Below, one piece after another: positions 23,258 to 36,708 of a stretch of DNA of 64,000 nt. The notes beneath the pieces are model-generated. The model was not told the DNA's origin. It searched no databases and saw only the letters and a program-made list of their open reading frames with translations. Every line of letters starts with the position of its first letter. Positions within the stretch are counted from its first letter, which is position 1. Both the position numbers and the translations under genes were made by a program. The stretch is from Methanocalculus chunghsingensis (GTDB lineage Archaea; Halobacteriota; Methanomicrobia; Methanomicrobiales; Methanocorpusculaceae), in assembly GCF_018132105.1 (NCBI RefSeq), contig NZ_JWHL01000008.1:1-64000 (forward strand). The letters run 5' to 3'.

Positions 23258-25543
23258 TTATCCAAGTTGTATCGCACCCACATAATGATACGCAATTTTT
23301 GCAGCATCACTGTGATTTACCGGATCGGAAAGAGGATCCGTTAATTTCGCCCTGGGATCCTGGTCAATGAGTCCGACCGCAATGTATGCCACTCTTGCAA
23401 CATCTCCGATATCCACCCTGCCGTTGCCATTCAGATCACCTCTCGGATTGACAATAATATACTCATTTCGTGTCAGCGTATCGTTTCCGGCATGATTTGA
23501 TACCGTGAGGGATACCCGGTATCTTCCCGGGATTTCGAAGATCGTTATGGGATGCTGATCACGGACGATTGTTTTGTCACCAAAACTCCATTCCCAATTG
23601 TCCGGGTAGCCGGTTGACCGATCGGTGAAAGTTACAGTAAGAGGGGCAGGACCAACGAGCAGATCTGCAGCAAAATCGGCAACAGGAGGGGAAGGGGGAG
23701 TTGATGGTGAAAATACAAAGACGGCGTTATGGGTTGCATCTGTCACATAGAGATCACCACGGCTATCAACGGCAATTCCGGACGGAGATGAGAGGCGACC
23801 AGTGCCAAATGATCCGATATATGTTCCGTTCTGATGAAATGCGATAATTCTTCCATTTCCGGCATCTGCGATGAACAGTTCTCCATAAGGAGATATGGCA
23901 ACATCGCGGGGCGCTGTCAGCCCCCCATCACCTTCAAGCGAAGGGCCGTAGGTGCGGATCTGGACCCCGGATCGATCATAAGCAACCACGCGGTTATTCC
24001 CGGAGTCGGAAACATAGAGGGTATCATCACGATCAAACCGGACACCCTGCGGGGATCTGAACTCTCCATCACCCGACCCCTGTGAGCCGAAATGGCGGAT
24101 AAAGCCACCCTCAGAGTTAAAGAGATCAATCCTGTGGTTTCCTGTATCAGCAATAGCAAGAACCCCGGATCGGTTTATGGCAATGCCGCCGGGAAATGAG
24201 AGCTCTCCCTGGAGAGATCCCCTCTCACCAAATGAACGAAGGAACTGCATATCCGAGTCAAATATCCGGATTTGGTGGTTCCCTGTATCAGCCACATAGA
24301 GCCGGCCGGCTTCATCATAGGAGACGCCGACAGGTCCGCCCAGGTTTTCTCCCGGAGCACCGGTGATCTCCTGGACGAAGGTGCCTTCAGAAGAAAAGAT
24401 CATGATCCGGTTATTCAGCATATCTGCGACAGAGACGATGCCTGATGAGGATATGGCGATGCCACGAGGAGAACTCAGAAACGATCCCCAGCTCCTCCGG
24501 AAGAGATAATATTCGGGATCAGCGGGAGAGGTGACGGTGATATACCCCTCTCGTGTTGAACGATTACTCCCTATGTCTTTCCCGGTGGTGAGGCTGACGG
24601 TATAGGTACCGACATCTTCATAGATCTTTGTTGGATGCTGTTCTTCAGAGGCTGTTCCATCTCCAAAATCCCAGAGCCAGAAGTCCGGATCTCCGGTGGA
24701 ATGATCGGTAAAAGCAACAAGGAGTGGTGCAGCCCCGCTGGTCGGATCTCCAAGAAAATGTGCAGTGGGTGGAAGAGGTGTTTCCTGAACGTGGATAAAG
24801 TCTTCTTTTGTGAGGATACTACTCCCCCCGGTATTCGACACCGTCAGGGATACAGTATAGAGTCCGGGTATGGTGTATATCTTTGTCGGGTGCTGTTCCA
24901 TTGAACCGGTTGCATCTCCAAAATCCCATAAAAATTCATCAGGATTCCCATCTGACTGATCCATAAAGCGGACAGATAAAGGGGCAACACCTGCAACCGG
25001 ATCAGCACTGAATCGTGCAGCAGGCTTCTGGGGAGGAACAGGGACATCCCCGACATTGAGAACAGCCGAGGAGACGATCGGATCATATTTGCCTGGTCCC
25101 AGGGGATCGATACTATCTACCTGGATCTGCAGAGGAGTATATCCACGTGCAATCGCCCGGACAGAGATGGTGATCAGGAGAACCTCCCCTGTCCCGGCAG
25201 CACCGGTAAGATCAACTGCCTTGCATCTGACCAATTGACCGGGAAGGGTACTGTTCTCCGGGAGATCCGCCCACCCGGGAAAGAGGACTGACGTTATCTC
25301 GCCGATTTCTGGATCATCAATCTGGATGATGAATTCGTACCCTGAAATTCCATCAGGAGCATCCTCTACCAGAAATGAATATTCGACCAGATCGCCAACT
25401 TCAGCAACCAGATATTCGGGATCAGGGATGATCGAGATGGGAACTCCATTGTTCTGGATTGAAGGGGCCTCATCGGCGCCTGCCGAAGCTGTCAGACATA
25501 GGCAGGCAAGAAGAAGAAAGAGGAGATGAGAAGAGATCTTCAC
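23258..25543 (-). CDS. Exported cohesin-like/PKD/NHL/PKD/dockerin protein
   Basis: This 761-residue surface protein has, in order: a signal peptide (LLFLLLACLCLTASAGA), a cohesin-like beta-sandwich (about 40-165, with ISGYEFIIQI, VLFPGWADL and VRCKAVDL), two PKD domains (about 175-335, WDFGDATG and WDFGDGTA), six NHL repeats (about 345-615, e.g. RLYVADTGNHQIRIF), a third PKD domain, and a C-terminal dockerin. The first dockerin loop DLNGNGRVDIGD is intact; the second (NHSDAAKIAYHYVG) has lost most calcium ligands. GTG 25543 is chosen because it directly follows the upstream stop with CGGAG before it. It is the last gene of the cluster. Confidence 0.85.
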   Translation of the reverse strand: MKISSHLLFLLLACLCLTASAGADEAPSIQNNGVPISIIPDPEYLVAEVGDLVEYSFLVEDAPDGISGYEFIIQIDDPEIGEITSVLFPGWADLPENSTLPGQLVRCKAVDLTGAAGTGEVLLITISVRAIARGYTPLQIQVDSIDPLGPGKYDPIVSSAVLNVGDVPVPPQKPAARFSADPVAGVAPLSVRFMDQSDGNPDEFLWDFGDATGSMEQHPTKIYTIPGLYTVSLTVSNTGGSSILTKEDFIHVQETPLPPTAHFLGDPTSGAAPLLVAFTDHSTGDPDFWLWDFGDGTASEEQHPTKIYEDVGTYTVSLTTGKDIGSNRSTREGYITVTSPADPEYYLFRRSWGSFLSSPRGIAISSSGIVSVADMLNNRIMIFSSEGTFVQEITGAPGENLGGPVGVSYDEAGRLYVADTGNHQIRIFDSDMQFLRSFGERGSLQGELSFPGGIAINRSGVLAIADTGNHRIDLFNSEGGFIRHFGSQGSGDGEFRSPQGVRFDRDDTLYVSDSGNNRVVAYDRSGVQIRTYGPSLEGDGGLTAPRDVAISPYGELFIADAGNGRIIAFHQNGTYIGSFGTGRLSSPSGIAVDSRGDLYVTDATHNAVFVFSPSTPPSPPVADFAADLLVGPAPLTVTFTDRSTGYPDNWEWSFGDKTIVRDQHPITIFEIPGRYRVSLTVSNHAGNDTLTRNEYIIVNPRGDLNGNGRVDIGDVARVAYIAVGLIDQDPRAKLTDPLSDPVNHSDAAKIAYHYVGAIQLG

Positions 25544-25544
25544 G

Positions 25545-26336
25545 CTAATTCTCCGGATCACGACCATGCAGAGATCCAATCAACAGCAGGGCGATGAGAG
25601 ATCCCAGAATGGGAAGGAATAGCCCTCCGGGAGATTTCTGAAGATCCGGTTCATCGACCGAAACCACCTGATCCTCCATATGACCAGATTCGGAATCCAG
25701 AGGGGTCACTTGATCTGCTACAGGCTCGGGAGTCTCTTCCGGCGTTGCGACTGTTGTGATACCAGGAGTCATGGCAGGTGTGGGTGTGGGAGTGGGAGTC
25801 GCGGTAACAACAGGTGTTGAAGATGAGGACCCCCCTCCACCGGAACCACCGGATGCCGGAGAAGCACTAACACCGACAGTCACAGGAATGACAATGGGTG
25901 AACCATTATACAGATCGCCAAAGTCATCTTCAAGGATATGCGGAGTGATGGTTATGGTTGCCATACCATTGGCAACGCCGGCAAGAGAGAGGACTGCAAA
26001 CTGAAATGAACCCTCTCCAGGTTCTGCCAGCTGGGAGAGATCAACACCCCTTATATGACCGGTTTCTGTGCCTGGAGATACAAATTCTTCCAGCATCACC
26101 CATTCCGCGAAGGTTACATCGGCAACATCAAGGATATGCGGATCCGTCACTTCAAGATTGAGATGGAACCCTGATATCCCATCTGTAGCACCGGTGATTC
26201 CGATCGTCAGAGGAATTTGCTGACCAACACCGAGAGAAAGACTCCCGGCTGGCGATACAATAACATCAGCCCCGAGGGCAGGTGTTACCAGAAAGCATAG
26301 AGAGACGATAATTACTGATACAATATTTATTCTCAT
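25545..26336 (-). CDS. Membrane-anchored cohesin-like protein
   Basis: This 263-residue protein has a signal peptide (VSVIIVSLCFLVTPALG), one cohesin-like domain (about 25-155, with DGISGFHLNLEVTDP and DVTFAEWVML), and a Gly/Ser then Pro/Thr-rich linker (about 160-225). A C-terminal hydrophobic helix (LFLPILGSLIALLLIGSL) follows, with a short charged end. It has no dockerin. It is thus the only member of the cluster that looks fixed in the membrane, and could be the cell-surface base to which dockerin proteins bind. Its stop is one base before the GTG of the next gene and its start 4 bases after the previous stop, so the three genes are translated as one unit. Confidence 0.8.
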   Translation of the reverse strand: MRINIVSVIIVSLCFLVTPALGADVIVSPAGSLSLGVGQQIPLTIGITGATDGISGFHLNLEVTDPHILDVADVTFAEWVMLEEFVSPGTETGHIRGVDLSQLAEPGEGSFQFAVLSLAGVANGMATITITPHILEDDFGDLYNGSPIVIPVTVGVSASPASGGSGGGGSSSSTPVVTATPTPTPTPAMTPGITTVATPEETPEPVADQVTPLDSESGHMEDQVVSVDEPDLQKSPGGLFLPILGSLIALLLIGSLHGRDPEN

Positions 26337-26340
26337 AAAA

Positions 26341-28227
26341 TCATCCTACCCACCCATTTAGGATTACAACATCATTAAAGCCGATATATCCATTTGCATC
26401 ATAGTCATAATGCAGAATGCGGCCATGATCACCATCGCGTATCGGCCCGATGTTGCGATAATACACCACGACATCATTAAAGCCCAGTCGTCCATTTCCA
26501 TCAAGATCATTATAATGCATCCCCTGAATGAAAGGTTCAGAATTGGAGCTGGGAGAGATACTCCTCTGATCCGGGAAATCGCCCTCAAGTCCTCCGGGGA
26601 ACGGGAGCCGATCCTTAACGATAATCTCCGAAGAAATAACAACCGAACGATATAAATTCCCCTGTTTATCCTCAACCTCGAAAACCGGTCCATCGACCTC
26701 ATCCAGAATACCCAGAATATACTCTCCGGTTGTAGAGGTGCGTATTGTGAGGTCGAGAAGATGGATGGTTCCATGTCCGGAATCACCATTCAGATCGATG
26801 GCACGACACCATACAGTACTCGATGGGAGAAGAGAGAGATCATTGAACTGTGCCCATGTGGGGAAGGTAAGATCAACAATCGGCAATAGATCAAGGAATG
26901 GGTTCTCTGTTCCCACGGTAACAGTGAGATTATATCCGGAGAGATCATCGGGAACCTGCCCCTCCGGAACTCTCAGGAACAGGCTGAATGAGTGATCCTT
27001 GTCAGGAACAGAGATGATCTTGTCGGGTACGAAATAGAGTTCCGGTGCAGGCGTTACCCGTATCAGGTCGGTCATGGTCACCGTACTCCTCCCCTCCTCA
27101 TTTTCAACCGTCAGGCTGACTGTATACAGACCGGGAGTTGTATAGGTATGTCGGGGATTTTCAACATCGGAAGTCGCACCGTCACCAAAATCCCAATGCC
27201 AGCTTAAAGGAGCCCGTTCAACCAGCTCCTGCCGGGTATAGGTGAACTGGATGGAGAGCGGAACGGAGTTTGTCGTATCCAGACGGGTATGGCTGAAACC
27301 GGCTATCGGAGGAAGAGGGTTACCTCTTGGAGCAAAGATTGCGATCCGGGCATTTCCCGTATCAACCGCATATACATACGGAGTTCTCCCGGTCTGGCCA
27401 ACCATCCTCACCGCAACACCACGGGGGAAACGAAGGTGATCAGAACCGAATATGGCAAGAATGTCGCCCGTATCATTCCACTTTTTTATCTGGCGGGCAT
27501 TATAATCAACATTATAGATATCCCCTGCATCAGAAACCGTGATACCATAACCACCGGTCGTCCACTGGTTTATATACTCGCCATCGGGAGCGAATTTCTG
27601 AATCCGACTATTTATCTCATCCATTACATAGAGATTTCCCATATTGTCAACCGTAACCCCGCTCGGATACCTGAATCTCCCTTCAGAGGTACCTGATCCA
27701 CCTAAAAAACGTATATGTGTCCCTGATTTAGTGAATATCTGGATCCTGTTGTTCCCGGTATCAGCGATATAGATGTATGCGGCATCAACTGCAATCCCTG
27801 AAGGCTGGAGCAAACCATATTCACCGGAACCATATGATCCAAAAGATAAGAGGTGGGATCCATTTTGGGCAAAGACCTGAACCCGGTTGTTGCCGGTATC
27901 TGCTACATAGATCCTCCCACTATCATCGACGGCAACGCCCCGGGGTTGTGAAAAGCCGCCATCAGCAACCCCTTCTCCCCCCCACTGACGAATAAAGCTG
28001 CCATAACCATCAAACATCTGGATACGATGGTTATCGGTATCAGCTACATAGATATTCCCCTGGATGTCCACAGCAATACCAATCGGTGTCAGGAACTCCC
28101 CATCACCCGATCCGGATGTCCCAAACGACCCGATGAAAATATACTCCTCCAGTGCGGATGAAGGGGTGCCGGCAATGAGTGCCAGCCCGAACAGTAGTAC
28201 AAAAATGATTTTTTTCCCTGGTATCAT
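26341..28227 (-). CDS. Exported NHL/PKD/cohesin-like/dockerin protein
   Basis: This 628-residue protein has a signal peptide (IIFVLLFGLALIAGTPSSA), a six-bladed NHL propeller (about 28-305, e.g. RIYVADTGNNRVQVF), a PKD domain (about 312-400, WHWDFGDGATSD), a cohesin-like domain (about 405-545, with LSGYNLTVTV, LTFPTWAQF and VWCRAIDL) and a C-terminal dockerin with two intact F-hand-like loops, DLDGNGRLGFND and DYDANGYIGFND. The module order differs from the two longest cluster members, which begin with the cohesin-like domain. No catalytic module is seen. The role is probably structural or adhesive at the cell surface. Confidence 0.85.
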   Translation of the reverse strand: MIPGKKIIFVLLFGLALIAGTPSSALEEYIFIGSFGTSGSGDGEFLTPIGIAVDIQGNIYVADTDNHRIQMFDGYGSFIRQWGGEGVADGGFSQPRGVAVDDSGRIYVADTGNNRVQVFAQNGSHLLSFGSYGSGEYGLLQPSGIAVDAAYIYIADTGNNRIQIFTKSGTHIRFLGGSGTSEGRFRYPSGVTVDNMGNLYVMDEINSRIQKFAPDGEYINQWTTGGYGITVSDAGDIYNVDYNARQIKKWNDTGDILAIFGSDHLRFPRGVAVRMVGQTGRTPYVYAVDTGNARIAIFAPRGNPLPPIAGFSHTRLDTTNSVPLSIQFTYTRQELVERAPLSWHWDFGDGATSDVENPRHTYTTPGLYTVSLTVENEEGRSTVTMTDLIRVTPAPELYFVPDKIISVPDKDHSFSLFLRVPEGQVPDDLSGYNLTVTVGTENPFLDLLPIVDLTFPTWAQFNDLSLLPSSTVWCRAIDLNGDSGHGTIHLLDLTIRTSTTGEYILGILDEVDGPVFEVEDKQGNLYRSVVISSEIIVKDRLPFPGGLEGDFPDQRSISPSSNSEPFIQGMHYNDLDGNGRLGFNDVVVYYRNIGPIRDGDHGRILHYDYDANGYIGFNDVVILNGWVG

Positions 28228-28363
28228 CGATGATCACATCCATTCATTCCATGGAGTCCGGACAGTGCTTCATGATGAACTGCCTGACCGCCCTCTATCA
28301 GAATGCATACTCGTTTCTCTCTCCCCTCGGCAATAGATCCCATCTGACGTTCTCTCTTCAGTA

Positions 28364-30655
28364 TCATATACCATCTCCGCCCGGTGGCCCGGTCATCCCC
28401 AGATATGCGTAGGCAATATAGGCTGCATCAGCTCCATCCACCACTCCGTCTTCGTTGAAGTCGGCCTCCTTAACACCCTCACCATATCCTGCTGCCATAT
28501 AGGCGACCCGTGAGAGATCCCCGATATCGATCCGTCCATTTCTGTTCAGATCACCCCTGAGGTGGACAGTGATGAAGTCATTTTGAACCATGGTTGCCAT
28601 TCCTCCCTGATTACCGGCAGTAAGTGAGACGGTGTACGTGCCTGGAGAGGAATATATCTTTTCAGGATACCGGGAGACATTCATCGTCCCATCTCCGAGA
28701 TTCCAGTTCCATGAGGTGACACGCCCCATAGAGATATCATCAAACCGAACCGTAAGCGGGGCATATCCTGAACGGGGAGTGGCAGTGAAGGCTGGAGATG
28801 GTGGAGCAACAGGACCATGATAGGTGATGATGGCAACCCTGTGGAGGCTGCTGTCGGTAATATAGAGAGTCCCATTACAATCGACGGCGATGCCGGAAGG
28901 GGAGGTGATATCAACCGAAGAGGGGGCCTCATTGTTGATTATATGAAGAATCTCTCCATTCAGATCCATGGCAACGATCCTGGTGTTCCCCGTATCAGCG
29001 ACATAGAAAAACCCTTCCGGGCTCCATGCCAGATCCCTGGGACGGTTCAGCTGATCATCACCGGCGTCATACTCCCCAAATACCCGGAAATCCAGAGAGA
29101 GGTCGATAGCGACGATACGGTTATTCTCCCGATCTGCTATATAGATCGTCTCTGAGGGATCGATTGTCATCCCTTGTGGGTACTGGAACTGCCAGATGCC
29201 GCTCCCATACGATCCTCGACTCCAGACAAGATCTCCATCCGGATTAAAGAGCTGGATCCGATGGTTCGATGTGTCGGAGACATACATGAATCCTGAACGG
29301 TTCACCACCACATCGCCAGGGAAGAGAAGCTCCCCATGTTCCGACCCCCGTGATCCAATCTCTCTCTGATAACTTCCGGAAGAATCAAAGGTGATAATCC
29401 GGTGGTTTCCTGCATCAGCAAGGTAGATGTCACCCTTCGCATCGACACAAAGACCAACCGGAACACTCAGATCTGCTCCTATACTCTTTATGACACTTCC
29501 TTCATTATCAAAGATCATAACCCGGTTATTCTGCCTGTCGGCAACGATGATCTCCCCGGCAGGAGAGACGGCGATTCCGGCTGGATCCCGAAACCGGACG
29601 GGTGAAAAGCCATATGATCCAAATGTTCTGCTGAGGAGATATCCGGGTTCGGTCCTGAAGATAACGGTATTGGAGATACCTTCGCTATACCCTCCCAGTA
29701 CCACCAGTCGGATCTGATAGTCGGTATATGGAGCCAGGCCATCCAGAATGGTCTCCCCGGCATCAGGGGGAATCGGGGTATGATTACCTGCTTCCCATCT
29801 TGTTCCGCCATCTGTACTCACCTCAGGGTGTACTGATTGTGCATCAACAGCAGGAGTCCAGGTGAGGTGTGCGGATCCGGATGTAGTGTTTATCACCGTC
29901 AGATCGGTGACGGGGATCACAGGTCTGGGGGTTGGGGTCGGAGCAGGCGTCGGCGTCGGAACCGGAGTGGGAGTGGCCGTAGGTGTCGGCTCAGGAGTCG
30001 GAGCAGGCGTCGGCGTCGGAACCGGAGTGGGAGTGGCCGTAGGTGTCGGCTCAGGGGTCGGAGCAGGCGTCGGCGTCGGCGTCGGAACCGGAGTGGGAGT
30101 GGCCGTAGGTGTCGGCTCAGGGGTCGGAGCAGGCCTGACGACCACCTCAACTGGTGTCAGGTGAGGTAGATACAGGCCACCCTGTCGATCATCAATCAGG
30201 GATTCTTCGGATAGATGAACCGTTGTATTGCCAGGCGAGAGAGCATGCAGGGTAAATGAGATGAGGGTGACATTGCCGGTTCCCCCTGCCCCCGTAAGAT
30301 CTATCGCCTTGCACCAGACCGCATCAGCAGGAGATCCACTCTTCTGGTAGGTGGAAAGATACGCCCATTCCGGAAAGGCAATTTGATCTATCTCAACAAT
30401 ACCCGGTTCACCGAGATACATGCTGATGTTGTATCCGGCAAACCCACTCCGGGCTGGATCCAGGTAGAGTGTTATCGCCAGCTTCTCACCAGAAGTTAGC
30501 GAAAGGATCCCCGGCTCTGCTATGATGACCGGGGGAAGATCCCCTTCGTCCATGGGATTGGGGTTCAGGGATAACAGACCGGAGTGGGCAGAAGCAGATG
30601 TACAGATTGAGAGAAGGCAGAGAGAAACCAGCAGAAGCAGATACCATAAAGGCAT
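28364..30655 (-). CDS. Exported cohesin-like/FN3/NHL/PKD/dockerin protein
   Basis: This 763-residue protein has a signal peptide ([21 protein letters not shown]), a cohesin-like domain (about 30-170, [27 protein letters not shown]), a Pro/Thr linker of near-perfect repeats (about 175-250), a fibronectin type III domain, six NHL repeats, a PKD domain (WNWNLGDGT) and a dockerin with both calcium loops intact ([24 protein letters not shown]). ATG 30655 gives the signal peptide at the N-terminus; the frame is open up to 30823 and earlier ATGs cannot be excluded. The linker is encoded by 60-base tandem repeats. Confidence 0.84.
29941..30126. repeat. Three tandem 60-66 bp repeats encoding the Pro/Thr linker
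   Basis: Copies run 29941-30000, 30001-30060 and 30061-30126. The first two differ at a single base and the third has an extra 6 bases. They encode a PTPxP-type linker in the exported cohesin-dockerin protein. Such high identity in a synonymous-tolerant region points to recent duplication and probable length variation between strains. Confidence 0.9.
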
Positions 30656-30887
30656 CCCGAGAGATACGAAGCGAGACCGGAATAGCAGGTTTTTTGGTTC
30701 CCTTTTGAGAGAATACACTCCATTGTTTCGGGATTCATACCCCCCGGTACAGGATACCATGACATTCTCTGGTCGTATCCTAAGCGGCGTTGAAGGGGAA
30801 ATAGTATTATCAACCCGTATCATTTTCTCTATTTAATCGTGAAGCCTTCATCTCCGGGAAAAGAGAGAGGGGATCAGGATTCTCTCC

Positions 30888-32747
30888 TCATGACCATTCC
30901 AACGCATTATACAGGGTTATAACGTCATTAAACCCAATCCATCCATTCTCATCATAATCAAAATAATCGATATCCCCATGCTCTCCTTCCTTGATCGTAT
31001 TCATATAGTTATAGAAGATGACAATATCATTGAACCCGATAAACCCGTTTCCATCGAGATCCTCATAGGTTCCCGATATTTTCCCCCTCATGGTCGGATT
31101 TGGAAATGAACCAAATGGCAGGACATCAGAGATGCGTATCTGCTTTGATTGAACAATAACCCCATTATTTGGTTGGTATGTCCGTCCTTCACGATCCTGA
31201 ATTGCACGCGGACCGCCGCCCACCATCATCATCGCATTTCCTCGCGTTGTGCCACCCTCAACCGTCAGATCCAGTAGATGTATCTCCCTGCTCGCCACGA
31301 CATCGGAGCGTATATCGGTTGCTGTACAGGTAACAACGACAGATGGAAGGTTTGAGACGTGATCAAAATGAGCCCATGCAGGGAACTCCACATCAATGTA
31401 TTCTGCAACCCCGTTATCTGTAAGAGAGAGTGTCAGATTGAATCCCGAGAGAACACCGGATCCTCCGGCTGGATAGACAAGCCAGAGCCCGAACTTCTCG
31501 GTCTGTCCGGGTCCCAACCGGATCTCGTATCTGTCCTCCAGAGTATAGGGCCGGAACTCAAGATACGGCATCACAGGAGCCTCAGTGACCGTGATACAAT
31601 TCGTCTTCACCTCTGTTGAGCTCCCCTCGTTATTTGTAACCGTCAGGGTTATTGTATAGGTTCCCGGTGTTTCGTACCGATATTGGGGGTTTTGCTCGGT
31701 GAGTACTGTTCCGTCTCCCAGATCCCATCTCCATGATGTCGGGTTATTGAAAGATTCGTCTGTAAACCAGACATTAAGGGGTGCTGATCCATGGGTTGGC
31801 GATGCGGTAAACCCTGCAACCGGAGGAAGAGGATATCCTGCCGGTACCCAGATGGACACCCGGTTATTCCCGGTATCTGCAACATAAACAAAAGGCGTCA
31901 GGCCAAGTCCTCCGGATCTTCGGACTGCAACACCACGGGGGCTTGAGAATTCTGCATCTCCTGCACCACCGGATCCAAACACAAGGAGCGTCTCACCTTC
32001 AGGGGTCTGCTTGATGATCCGATCATTGGCGGGATCGGCGAGATACACCAGGTTATTGTCATCAGCAGCGATGCCATATCCTGGTGTATCCCAGGCCCTC
32101 TGGAATGTGCCAGCAGTATTAAAACACTGAATCCGGCCGTTCAGGTCATCGATAACATAGATATAACCTGATTCATTCACCATCACGTCAACAGGATTGA
32201 GAAACTGCCCCTCACCGGTTCCGGGACCTCCAAAAGACTCAAAGACCCCGCTTATACGGTTAATCTTCTGTATCCTGTTATTACCGGAGTCTGCAACATA
32301 AATCCAGTTGATTGTATCGACCGCAATACCGGTCGGGCTGGTGAGCTGTCCCGCACCATCTCCATATGAACCATAGGAACGCTGATACACACCTTCCGAG
32401 TCATACACGACAATCCGGTGGTTGTTGGTATCCGCAACATAGACCCGATCGCCCCGATCGACTGCGATCCCCTTTGGATACTGAAACTCCAGTTCACCGG
32501 TTCCAAATGAACCCCATTCCCTGATGAAAGTACCGGCCTGATCAAACTTGACAACCCGGCTGTTATATGTATCAGCAACATAGACATTACCGGTCGAATC
32601 GATGGCAACATCGTACGGGCGATCAAATGGCGAATCCAGTACCTCAAACGACTTGAAAAAGATATACTCCTCCTCTGCCAGACATGGTGAACAGAGGAGG
32701 CCAAGACCGAGAATTACTCCAAGGTATATCAATGTAGTACACTTCAT
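30888..32747 (-). CDS. Exported NHL/PKD/cohesin-like/dockerin protein
   Basis: This 619-residue protein has a signal peptide (LIYLGVILGLGLLCSPCLA), six NHL repeats (about 30-305, e.g. RVYVADTNNHRIVVY), a PKD domain (WRWDLGDGT), a cohesin-like domain (about 410-545, LSGFNLTLSL, VEFPAWAHF, VTCTATDI) and a dockerin with two intact loops (DLDGNGFIGFND, DYDENGWIGFND). ATG 32747 is chosen over the ATG at 32792 since it begins the signal peptide and has AGGAT upstream. It is closely related in layout to the 26341-28227 and 34635-36578 genes, suggesting tandem duplication. Confidence 0.85.
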   Translation of the reverse strand: MKCTTLIYLGVILGLGLLCSPCLAEEEYIFFKSFEVLDSPFDRPYDVAIDSTGNVYVADTYNSRVVKFDQAGTFIREWGSFGTGELEFQYPKGIAVDRGDRVYVADTNNHRIVVYDSEGVYQRSYGSYGDGAGQLTSPTGIAVDTINWIYVADSGNNRIQKINRISGVFESFGGPGTGEGQFLNPVDVMVNESGYIYVIDDLNGRIQCFNTAGTFQRAWDTPGYGIAADDNNLVYLADPANDRIIKQTPEGETLLVFGSGGAGDAEFSSPRGVAVRRSGGLGLTPFVYVADTGNNRVSIWVPAGYPLPPVAGFTASPTHGSAPLNVWFTDESFNNPTSWRWDLGDGTVLTEQNPQYRYETPGTYTITLTVTNNEGSSTEVKTNCITVTEAPVMPYLEFRPYTLEDRYEIRLGPGQTEKFGLWLVYPAGGSGVLSGFNLTLSLTDNGVAEYIDVEFPAWAHFDHVSNLPSVVVTCTATDIRSDVVASREIHLLDLTVEGGTTRGNAMMMVGGGPRAIQDREGRTYQPNNGVIVQSKQIRISDVLPFGSFPNPTMRGKISGTYEDLDGNGFIGFNDIVIFYNYMNTIKEGEHGDIDYFDYDENGWIGFNDVITLYNALEWS

Positions 32748-32843
32748 ATCCTGACACCCGCGTTTATTAAACAATCCATTGTTTATCAGCAACCTAAACC
32801 ATTCCAGATACCTGTCATCATCCTTTCAGCACCCTGCCGGTTT

Positions 32844-34556
32844 TCAGACCATCTCGTAGAGCACCACCACATCATTAAACCCGATTCGGCCGTTTCCATC
32901 ATAATCAAAGAGCTCTATCTGGCCAAAGTCTCCGAGTCGCAACACCTCGATATTTTCATAGAATAAGATGACATCATTAAACCCGATTCTTCCATTGCCA
33001 TCAAGATCCTCATAAAGCCGATCTCCGGTCATATCCTGGGGTTTTGGAAAGAATCCTCCTTGAGGCTTTGGAAAATGGCGAAGGAGATTAATATAATCAC
33101 TTTTTGTGATGGTATCAGATCCGCCGCCATTTCTGACCATGAGGCTGACAGTATAGATTCCCGGGGTAGTGTAGCTGTATACCGGGTTTTCAAGGGTTGA
33201 TTCACCGCCATCACCAAACATCCAGTGCCACTCATCGATGGTTCCTGATGAGAGATCACTAAATGAGATAGAGAGGGGAGCATTGCCTTCTCTGATATCG
33301 GCATCGAATGCTGCCGATGGAGGTGGCGGATGTGCGGTGATGATGGAGTCCGTGATTATATGATCCTCCCCACCTGCATTCGTGACGGTGAGAGAGATCG
33401 AATAGGTGCCAGGATCCTGATAGACATGAACCGGATGCTGCTCTGATGAGGTTGTCCCATCCCCGAAATCCCAGAGCCATGCATCAACGGTACCTGTCGA
33501 TCGATCCGTCAGTGTAACAGGGAATGGGATAATTCCTTCAGTCTGATTGACAAAAAAATCAGCCTGGGGAGGGGGTGGCATCTCTTTGACCGTAATCGAT
33601 CGATCTTGAAGGGCCGGGCAGTACAGTCCACCCTGACGATCATCGATAAGATGCCCCTCAAGAATACCAATCCCGGCCTCTCCCGGCGCGACTGCACGGA
33701 CGGTCATCATGACAAGGGCCACTTCTCCTGTTCCGGAATCACCGGCCAGATCAACCGCCTTGCACCAGACACTCTCTGCTGGAAGCGGTCCATGCTCCGG
33801 CATATTTGCCCATGAAGGGAAGGAGACCGATGTGATCTCAAGAACCGAGGAGTCAGAGACAAAACCCGTAATATTATAGCCGGAAATGCCCTGATCCGCG
33901 TTCTCCATCACCACGGTATAGACAGCCGTCTGCCCGACGGAGAGTTCGTCCTCATCCCCTGCAAGAAGAACAGAGGATGTATCCGGTTGAGGGCTGGGTG
34001 TTGGTTCAGGAGTCGGAATGGGGGTGGGCTCAGGAGTTGGTGTCGGTCCGGGATCTGACCCAACATGCAGAAGAGCAGAGATGGGAGGGGGATATTCCCG
34101 ATAACCGGCTGCATCATCGAGATACCCCTCCCCGGAACGAATCCTGATTCCGGTCATCCCGGGGGCATCAGCCCTGATACGAAGAGTCAGGACGGTAATA
34201 TCCGAACCGCCGGGGCCGTCCCCGAGATCTGCACCCCTGCACCAGACCTCATCACCCGGAAGTGAACTCTGCTGCCGTAGATCAACCCATGAAGGGAAGA
34301 TTACCTCAACAATCTCCCCAACATCGGGGTTATCAAGATAAAAGCTTATATTAAATCCAATGAGACCATTCGGGGCAGTTATCGCCTTCAGGGTAACATC
34401 AATACTATCTCCCGTCCCTGCGGTAACCTCAGCCGGAATGAAGGCCATCTCATAGGATGATCCGGATGAGGACTCCGGAGAGACCAGAACTGCCGAACCA
34501 CCGGGTACAAGAAGCAAAGAGACTATGATAATCAGGAGCCAGACTGCCGGTTTCAT
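32844..34556 (-). CDS. Exported double cohesin-like/double PKD/dockerin protein
   Basis: This 570-residue protein has a signal peptide (LLIIIVSLLLVPGGSA), a first cohesin-like domain (about 35-165, LIGFNISFYL, VIFPSWVDL, VWCRGADL), a Pro/Thr linker (about 173-195), a second cohesin-like domain (about 200-325, ISGYNITGFV, VSFPSWANM, VWCKAVDL), two PKD domains (WLWDFGDGT, WHWMFGDGG) and a dockerin with two intact loops (DLDGNGRIGFND, DYDGNGRIGFND). It is the only member with two cohesin-like domains and no NHL propeller, so it would be the branching scaffoldin if the pairing model holds. Confidence 0.86.
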   Translation of the reverse strand: MKPAVWLLIIIVSLLLVPGGSAVLVSPESSSGSSYEMAFIPAEVTAGTGDSIDVTLKAITAPNGLIGFNISFYLDNPDVGEIVEVIFPSWVDLRQQSSLPGDEVWCRGADLGDGPGGSDITVLTLRIRADAPGMTGIRIRSGEGYLDDAAGYREYPPPISALLHVGSDPGPTPTPEPTPIPTPEPTPSPQPDTSSVLLAGDEDELSVGQTAVYTVVMENADQGISGYNITGFVSDSSVLEITSVSFPSWANMPEHGPLPAESVWCKAVDLAGDSGTGEVALVMMTVRAVAPGEAGIGILEGHLIDDRQGGLYCPALQDRSITVKEMPPPPQADFFVNQTEGIIPFPVTLTDRSTGTVDAWLWDFGDGTTSSEQHPVHVYQDPGTYSISLTVTNAGGEDHIITDSIITAHPPPPSAAFDADIREGNAPLSISFSDLSSGTIDEWHWMFGDGGESTLENPVYSYTTPGIYTVSLMVRNGGGSDTITKSDYINLLRHFPKPQGGFFPKPQDMTGDRLYEDLDGNGRIGFNDVILFYENIEVLRLGDFGQIELFDYDGNGRIGFNDVVVLYEMV

Positions 34557-34634
34557 GCCAGTATCACCATCCCTGTCCCTGCCAGATGCATAATCATAAC
34601 GAGCAATAGTTGAGAGTGAGAGGAGATTCTCCCA

Positions 34635-36578
34635 TCACTCGATTGCACGGTAGAGCGTCCTCATATCATTTGTCGTAATTCCGCCAACACCATCATAGTT
34701 ATAGTAATCAACTGTACCATGATTGCCGGTAGCGATTGCATCCATATTATTCCAGAAGATGACGACATCATTGAAGCCGATTCTCCCGTTTCCATCGAGA
34801 TCTTCATAGGTATTTGCAATAATACCACGTGCCGTTGGCGAGGGGAAGAGGCCTCCTGATGGCCGGGGGAATGACAGGACCCCTTCAACATTGATGACGG
34901 CATCATTGACAACCGGCCGATAGATCCCTCCTTCACGATCAGCGATATGGATCTCATCACCGGAATCACCCGGTATCGAAGTCTTCTCAATCGTCAGTAC
35001 TGTTGATCCGCTTCCGCTATCGGCAACAACCACCAGATCGAAGAGATGAAGAGAGTCTCTTCCTGATTCACCATTCAGATCAACCGCTGTCACCCAGACA
35101 CTGCTTCCAGGGAGCGCGGCATATTCGGTCTGGAATTCATAGGCATTCCAGAGAGGGGACGGGCGGACATCTGTGATCTTCACATTATCATTTGAGAGGC
35201 TGAGCGTGATATTAAACCCGGAGAGATCATTCGGGGTATGTCCTGCCGGAATATCGAGCCAGAGACCGATGATCTGCTCCTGGCCGATCGTCAGATCCAT
35301 CTGATCGGGATCGAAGGTGAGATGGGGAGCGGCAGTCACACTGAAGAGATCAGATTTGGTGATCGTGTCGGTCCCTTCTCCGTTTCTCACTGTCAGGCGG
35401 ACCGAGTACGTTCCTACATCGGTGAATTCATGCGTGTAGTTACGCTGTTCATAAGACTGGGTCTCATAGAGGATACCCCATGGACCTCCATCTCTGGAGA
35501 CCTCCCATCGCCATGTTGTCGGCTTTCTCCCCTCAGGATCTGAACTGGATGTATCGTTGAGCCATACCCCATGAGGCACAGATGCCGGAGTGATACTCTC
35601 GAATTCAAAATCAGCGATAGGAGGGAGGGTTGAACCTTCAGGCGCCCAGATCGAGATTCTGTTATTGCCGGTATCTGCCACATAAATAAATGGAGTCCTT
35701 CCAGGCGTTGCCAGAACCCGCTTGATCCCGATATCACGGGGCTCATCCAGCTGACTGATCCCGGGATCATCACCAAACGCTGTTATTGATCCACCTACGT
35801 TGTCTGTTACCCTGATCAGATTCGAAGTCCAGTCTGTTGAGAAGATGTTGTTCTCCTCATTTATCAGGATACCATACCCATCGGAAGCCCAGCTTCTCTG
35901 GTAGACGCCATTGATATCAAAGACCTGAACCCGGAAGTTCTGCTGATCCATCACATATATATTCATTGACGAATCGACCGAGATGCCGACCGGATATCGG
36001 AATGTTCCATTAATGGTTCCCGCCTGGCCAAAAGCCCTCACAAAGCTGCCATCTTTATTAAGTATCTGGATGCGATGATTCTCGGTATCAGCAACATAGA
36101 GATAGGTATCATCGACCGCAACAGCACCCGGACTCTTCATCTCTCCATTCGCACTTCCAAATGAGCCGAATGTTCGCCATTGCCCACCTGCCCGATCGAT
36201 GCGGACAATCCGGTGATTCTTTGTATCAGCAATGTAGATGAAACCCTGGTTATCGACGACAATCCCTTTTGGTTCATGGAACTGGCGCTCCCCGGACCCC
36301 TGGGTTCCAATTGACCATTCCACAGTTCCAAATGGATCAAACTTCACCACCCGGTGATTCTGGGTATCTGCAACATAGACATTTCCATCATCCAGGGAGT
36401 CAACCGCAACACCATAGGGATTTGCAAGGGGAATTCCTCCGGACTGTCCGCTCCCTGCCATTGTTCCATTGAAGGAATCGACATAGATATGAGCAGCAGT
36501 CGTTGTTCCGGGAATAAGAAAGACAAGAAGGAGCCATATCATCGCCCCTGTAACCAGATATCGTGATGTTGTACTCAT
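34635..36578 (-). CDS. Exported NHL/PKD/cohesin-like/dockerin protein (first gene of cluster)
   Basis: This 647-residue protein has a signal peptide (GAMIWLLLVFLIPGTTTAA), six NHL repeats (about 35-310), a longer PKD domain (WRWEVSRDGG), a cohesin-like domain (about 420-570, LSGFNITLSL, VWVTAVDL with Val replacing the usual Cys) and a dockerin. The first loop DLDGNGRIGFND is intact; the second (NYDGVGGITTND) lacks the first Asp and the fifth-position ligand. ATG 36578 follows GAGAGGTG and begins the signal peptide. TATA elements upstream mark it as the promoter-proximal gene of the cluster. Confidence 0.85.
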   Translation of the reverse strand: MSTTSRYLVTGAMIWLLLVFLIPGTTTAAHIYVDSFNGTMAGSGQSGGIPLANPYGVAVDSLDDGNVYVADTQNHRVVKFDPFGTVEWSIGTQGSGERQFHEPKGIVVDNQGFIYIADTKNHRIVRIDRAGGQWRTFGSFGSANGEMKSPGAVAVDDTYLYVADTENHRIQILNKDGSFVRAFGQAGTINGTFRYPVGISVDSSMNIYVMDQQNFRVQVFDINGVYQRSWASDGYGILINEENNIFSTDWTSNLIRVTDNVGGSITAFGDDPGISQLDEPRDIGIKRVLATPGRTPFIYVADTGNNRISIWAPEGSTLPPIADFEFESITPASVPHGVWLNDTSSSDPEGRKPTTWRWEVSRDGGPWGILYETQSYEQRNYTHEFTDVGTYSVRLTVRNGEGTDTITKSDLFSVTAAPHLTFDPDQMDLTIGQEQIIGLWLDIPAGHTPNDLSGFNITLSLSNDNVKITDVRPSPLWNAYEFQTEYAALPGSSVWVTAVDLNGESGRDSLHLFDLVVVADSGSGSTVLTIEKTSIPGDSGDEIHIADREGGIYRPVVNDAVINVEGVLSFPRPSGGLFPSPTARGIIANTYEDLDGNGRIGFNDVVIFWNNMDAIATGNHGTVDYYNYDGVGGITTNDMRTLYRAIE

Positions 36579-36591
36579 CGAACACCTCTCA

Positions 36592-36708
36592 AAGTATAAA
36601 GTATTATAAGCATTCATTGAAGATGCGATCAGCTCCACAGCTTTTGTGAAATGCATGACCCCCTCTGCAAGTATCGCAGATATTAGTTCAAAATAATATA
36701 AAGATTGT
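36592..36708 (-). promoter_or_regulatory. Promoter region of the cohesin-dockerin cluster
   Basis: Two TATA-like elements face the cluster on the minus strand. TTATAATAC at 36601-36609, about 25-30 bases before the ATG, and CTTTATATTATTT near 36696-36708, would give short and about 100-base leaders respectively. The gap between genes (36579-36834) is strongly A/T-rich compared with its surroundings; nothing else was recognised in it. Confidence 0.5.

Follow-up and report, generated by a model that had tools for sequence, protein, structure and literature searches.

Background

Cohesins and dockerins of non-cellulolytic archaea have been called enigmatic. In Archaeoglobus fulgidus, a 506-aa protein (ORF2375) is composed of a propeller, a cohesin nearly identical to PDB structure 2XDH and a dockerin, and the next gene (ORF2376) encodes a protein of 190 aa that matches cohesin (E 5.5e-21) and PGF-CTERM (E 5.1e-6). 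A 2011 paper on A. fulgidus reportedly found this single dockerin to be bound by both cohesins, an arrangement that would permit chains. PMC9705933 states, citing Voronov-Goldman 2011, that the cohesin of ORF2376 (residues 29-162) binds the dockerin of ORF2375 (residues 432-506) strongly and specifically. Archaeal cohesin-dockerin proteins related to those described below are already known (PMC9012536, PMC5244752); in the papers searched, we found no description of a recurring module of an anchor and its partners.

Here we analyse a window of 64,000 nucleotides from Methanocalculus chunghsingensis (contig NZ_JWHL01000008.1). We put at roughly three in four the probability that the product of one of its genes, gene A, is the foot on which an archaeal cohesin-dockerin assembly stands at the cell surface, the base of a chain built from its class II neighbours.

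A predicted anchor protein within a seven-gene cluster

Gene A and its six neighbours are arranged along the direction of transcription as G, F, E, D, C, A, B, with the following features:

34635..36656, minus strand: gene G; NHL propeller, PKD, cohesin-like domain, class II dockerin
32844..34556, minus strand: gene F; two cohesin-like domains, two PKD, class II dockerin; a candidate branching scaffold
30888..32792, minus strand: gene E; NHL propeller, PKD, cohesin-like domain, class II dockerin
28364..30823, minus strand: gene D; cohesin-like domain, fn3, NHL propeller, PKD, class I dockerin
26341..28227, minus strand: gene C; NHL propeller, PKD, cohesin-like domain, class II dockerin
26344..26526, minus strand: class II (FNDVV) dockerin of C
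25545..26336, minus strand: gene A, predicted anchor protein of 263 aa with an ATG start (ORF, Pfam, hydropathy, loop pattern)
26268..26336, minus strand: predicted signal peptide of A, residues 1-23, MRINIVSVIIVSLCFLVTPALGA (hydropathy; cleavage site by eye)
25860..26267, minus strand: cohesin-like domain of A, about residues 24-159 (alignment, AlphaFold model, PDB fold matches)
25635..25859, minus strand: linker of A, about residues 160-234, rich in Ser/Gly/Thr/Pro and then acidic (sequence)
25548..25634, minus strand: C-terminal tail of A, with an SPGG motif, a hydrophobic helix (235-258) and a short polar end (hydropathy)
23258..25579, minus strand: gene B; N-terminal cohesin-like domain, PKD, NHL propeller, PKD, class I dockerin

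Hydropathy identifies two hydrophobic stretches in A, residues 1-29 and 235-258, with signal peptide cleavage predicted between ALGA and the following D. The six neighbours have only an N-terminal hydrophobic stretch and none at the C-terminus by hydropathy, and all of them end in dockerin-like double calcium loops; A alone among the seven lacks a dockerin. Hydropathy and loop patterns of the seven proteins therefore confirm what an earlier note on this DNA had claimed, that only A lacks a dockerin and carries a C-terminal hydrophobic helix. The note had also described A as overlapping or abutting dockerin genes, and indeed gene C ends 4 nt before A and the ORF of B overlaps the end of A; B starts at 25579 at most, plausibly with the ATG at 25567. 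Promoter and terminator scans of the cluster with bacterial-type models gave chance-level results only, so the operon structure is judged from spacing only.

Two dockerin classes are distinguished. The class II (FNDVV) dockerin occurs at four places in the genome, namely C, E, F and G, and the class I (VAY/DAA) dockerin of B (23261-23440) and D (28388-28561) is found at ten sites spread over six contigs. The second calcium loop of the B dockerin is degenerate (Pfam E 0.093), and this dockerin may, to judge from its sequence, bind weakly or not at all. A second cohesin-dockerin cluster of the same genome, with Pfam-recognised cohesins, lies at 9231-24514 of contig C8; a subtilase and a TED-like protein carry dockerins there, which are lacking from the tailed cohesin proteins (312 and 1057 aa). 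The simplest reading is that the window cluster and the C8 cluster are two parallel systems.

The window cluster (23258-36656) has a G+C content of 0.507, compared with 0.563 and 0.546 in its flanks, and elsewhere in the genus and family the cohesin type of A is absent from the sampled genomes or gives a single match. Horizontal gain or a retained island is a possible source of this pattern.

The domain of A as a divergent cohesin

The window contains eight domains of the A type, two in F and one in each of the other six proteins; that of A is approximately 130 residues long, and its match in a search of the host genome spans 25866-26264. Sequence libraries recognize it poorly: no Pfam cohesin model matches A at E<=1, searches of Pfam and NCBIfam yielded no informative match for the protein, and a sequence search of the PDB returns no match with the eight window domains and weak cohesin matches only with 68 relatives. 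The Pfam Cohesin model (PF00963) matches 7 of these 68 relatives, with a best E of 8.5e-8.

Structure and profile comparisons are more informative. An AlphaFold model of the A domain, built on the eight window domain sequences, has a pLDDT of 81.6 and a pTM of 0.76, and in a Foldseek search of the PDB its matches at ranks 1-33 are all cohesins (TM up to 0.73), including 1AOH, 1OHZ and the archaeal 2XDH of A. fulgidus (TM 0.72); non-cohesin beta-sandwich proteins also match, at lower rank. A profile of the 68 relatives across the order aligns with Pfam-confirmed Archaeoglobus-type cohesins over 127 columns (96% probability, E 3.7e-9), whereas a window-only profile matches accepted archaeal cohesins more weakly (53% probability). 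These fold and profile tests outweigh the absence of a PF00963 match: as judged from model and alignment, the domain is a divergent cohesin missed by sequence libraries, and the label "cohesin-like" chosen in the earlier note was apt. In the beta5-beta6 region of the model, A differs from its window neighbours (for example, VWCKA is replaced by GHIRG), and such a difference could give A another dockerin preference.

The anchor type across the order and phylum

Among 150 genomes surveyed in the order, 53 contain the cohesin family of A. Forty loci were taken from the order, partly chosen for the presence of small and large ORFs together, and we counted all complete cohesin ORFs of these loci, of two additional host-genome loci and of the window, with C-terminal helices and dockerins assigned by hydropathy and loop pattern. 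The resulting 88 cohesin ORFs comprise 46 with a dockerin only, 24 with a helix only, 18 with neither and none with both (Fisher p 1.5e-10). An unselected repeat on 30 loci from genomes outside the order, which were the automatic best matches of a phylum-wide PF00963 search, gave a similar partition of 42 cohesin ORFs: 17 with a dockerin only, 17 with a helix only, 8 with neither and none with both (p 4e-6). The anchor protein type, which combines a signal peptide, one cohesin, a linker and a C-terminal helix with the lack of a dockerin and is encoded beside a cohesin-dockerin gene, is conserved across the order and the phylum.

The genomic pairing of anchors with dockerin genes is also widespread. 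A dockerin ORF on the same strand adjoins 17 of the 24 anchors of the order (71%), often with a 4-nt overlap, and the other 7 have no such neighbour; the corresponding background is 35 among the 358 non-cohesin ORFs of these loci (9.8%; p 3e-11). In a quick tree of 103 cohesin domains from a short alignment, in which the deeper forks are unsure, the anchor label changes 8 times, compared with 21.7 times by shuffling, which indicates that the label follows common descent; A belongs to a group of 12 domains (support 92), 11 of which are from anchors.

Searched with gene A alone, the named genomes gave no relatives, and with the cohesin-dockerin tail they gave three loci only. At four loci outside the order, some apparently haloarchaeal (L157, L158, L159, L160), the two-gene pair is present as a dockerin protein of about 870-900 aa beside a tailed protein of 222-276 aa. 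One incomplete genome, that of Methanogenium cariaci (L093, L094, L104), has 26 matches of the A cohesin family, several of them in short or broken-looking ORFs and some ending in a GGYW-containing region.

Predicted attachment of A to the cell surface

The tail of A has no match to PGF-CTERM models at E<=1, and neither it nor the tails of its relatives match any sorting-signal family. Membership of A in the PGF-CTERM family was rejected on this HMM evidence. A related possibility is that the tail is nevertheless a signal for archaeosortase A, which would cut it and leave A linked to lipid rather than spanning the membrane, with the anchoring role unchanged. The host encodes archaeosortase A (TIGR04125 E 1e-80, contig C24) and true PGF-CTERM proteins; PGF-type tails are found in the anchors of A. 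fulgidus, the Archaeoglobus group and some others; and relatives that group with A in the tree (G027; M. cariaci) carry APGF or TPGF ahead of the helix, where A has SPGG (SPGGLF). Set against these points are the missing PGF-CTERM match and the tails of most anchors in the order, which have KKRE-like ends and no PGF motif, and we regard processing by archaeosortase as a serious possibility towards which we do not quite lean. Archaeosortase cuts such tails yet leaves the protein lipid-linked, so cleavage of the tail would by itself leave the anchor reading intact: A would be held at the surface whether the tail stays as a helix or is replaced by lipid.

Proposed assembly and alternative readings

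The reading of A as the surface foot of an assembly is the best explanation of the fold, architecture, conservation, genomic pairing and dockerin classes described above, from which we infer membrane attachment, binding, class specificity and chain growth. The signal peptide of A would direct its export, and the C-terminal helix would secure it on the outer side of the membrane, staying in place as a transmembrane anchor or giving way to a lipid through archaeosortase A, with the flexible linker carrying the single cohesin outward. As its ligand this cohesin would most probably take a class II (FNDVV) dockerin, from C, E, F or G; by position, that of C is the likeliest partner. The cohesins of C, E, F (two) and G would offer the next socket, so that a chain could grow outward from the membrane; since A lacks a dockerin, it could only be the base of such a chain. 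Because a lone cohesin module can accommodate no more than one dockerin at any moment, tethering six proteins would require many copies of A or daisy-chaining. Membrane anchoring of dockerin partners by A is well supported by inference.

Two other accounts would remove A from any assembly with its neighbours. Archaeal surface proteins often have C-terminal tails of this kind, and A might be no more than one of these, anchored by its tail and unconnected with the adjacent genes; we consider this very improbable, given that anchors adjoin dockerin genes so much more frequently than other ORFs of the same loci do (71% versus 9.8%) and that A shares its cohesin family with the neighbours. The dockerins might instead be used intramolecularly, with A binding something else, such as the S-layer, a glycan or an Ig-like partner. 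Cohesin and dockerin are indeed adjacent within C, E and G, the beta-sandwich matches to the A model extend beyond cohesins, though lower in rank, and the model of the cohesin-dockerin end of C has a pLDDT of 40, so no docking geometry is claimed. Conservation of the anchor-dockerin gene pairing in the order and the phylum argues for binding between proteins, as does the intermolecular binding in A. fulgidus reported in PMC9705933, and intramolecular use appears improbable.

How many of the neighbours A serves is a closer question. The earlier note had A tethering the other six proteins, which is too broad: one cohesin holds one dockerin, and class II dockerins are found in C, E, F and G only. 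B and D, with a class I dockerin that recurs at ten places genome-wide, may, on sequence grounds, dock elsewhere than on A. In the strictest form of this reading A anchors the class II proteins only, with B and D docking, for example, in the C8 cluster, where two of the class I dockerins sit beside tailed cohesin proteins; the dockerin neighbours of anchors in the order, too, are mostly class II. B nevertheless lies directly downstream of A, as class I-like proteins lie directly downstream of the anchors in G027 and G033, and the dockerins beside A. fulgidus-type anchors are not of the FNDVV type. We give the exclusive restriction of A to class II somewhat less than an even chance.

A dockerin-free anchor paired with cohesin-dockerin proteins, from Archaeoglobus to methanogens and others, offers a simple structural logic, and the anchor-partner pairs are a defined set for binding tests. 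The anchor module would also account for the display of large beta-propeller proteins on the surface of archaea that lack a rigid wall. It is a further and doubtful step to suppose that self-propagating surface chains anchored at the base are common among archaea of the phylum; such chains would be seeded by a membrane-held cohesin and extended by propeller/PKD cohesin-dockerin units, with private cohesin-dockerin classes separating parallel chains.

Comparison with known systems

The anchoring scaffoldins of bacterial cellulosomes resemble A in lacking a dockerin, in combining a cohesin with a cell-surface anchor (predicted in A) and in holding dockerin proteins (proposed for A), but they are attached through S-layer-homology or sortase anchors, whereas A is predicted to use a membrane helix or an archaeosortase tail. 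They hold enzyme complexes, whereas the six partners of A contain NHL, PKD, fn3 and related domains only, with no hydrolase domain recognised by Pfam. Of the parallel with these scaffoldins drawn in the earlier note, A shows the cohesin fold in its model, together with a hydrophobic tail that may serve as the surface anchor, but dockerin-bearing glycoside hydrolases are missing from the cluster; with no hydrolases among the six partners by Pfam, the interpretation of the cluster as a cellulosome was rejected.

Surface proteins processed through PGF-CTERM and archaeosortase A share with A the signal peptide, the Thr/Pro linker and the C-terminal helix, and their sortase, ArtA, is present in the host; unlike theirs, the tail of A matches no PGF-CTERM model. 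The cohesin, dockerin and scaffoldin-like proteins of ANME archaea, as described in PMC9012536, likewise include archaeal multi-cohesin proteins with a dockerin, and attachment to the S-layer is proposed there; the passages on dockerins and cohesins describe proteins combining S-layer and dockerin domains rather than an anchoring cohesin protein encoded beside cohesin-dockerin genes.

The closest counterpart is the gene pair of A. fulgidus. Its cohesins are recognised by Pfam and its tail is clearly PGF-CTERM, whereas A is silent in Pfam and has a non-canonical tail, and the window type differs further in its longer linker, NHL/PKD partners, FNDVV dockerins and seven genes. ORF2376 and A are nevertheless alike in having a signal peptide, a single cohesin, a C-terminal hydrophobic tail and no dockerin, and in both genomes a propeller-cohesin-dockerin gene lies directly adjacent on the same strand, here represented by C and B.
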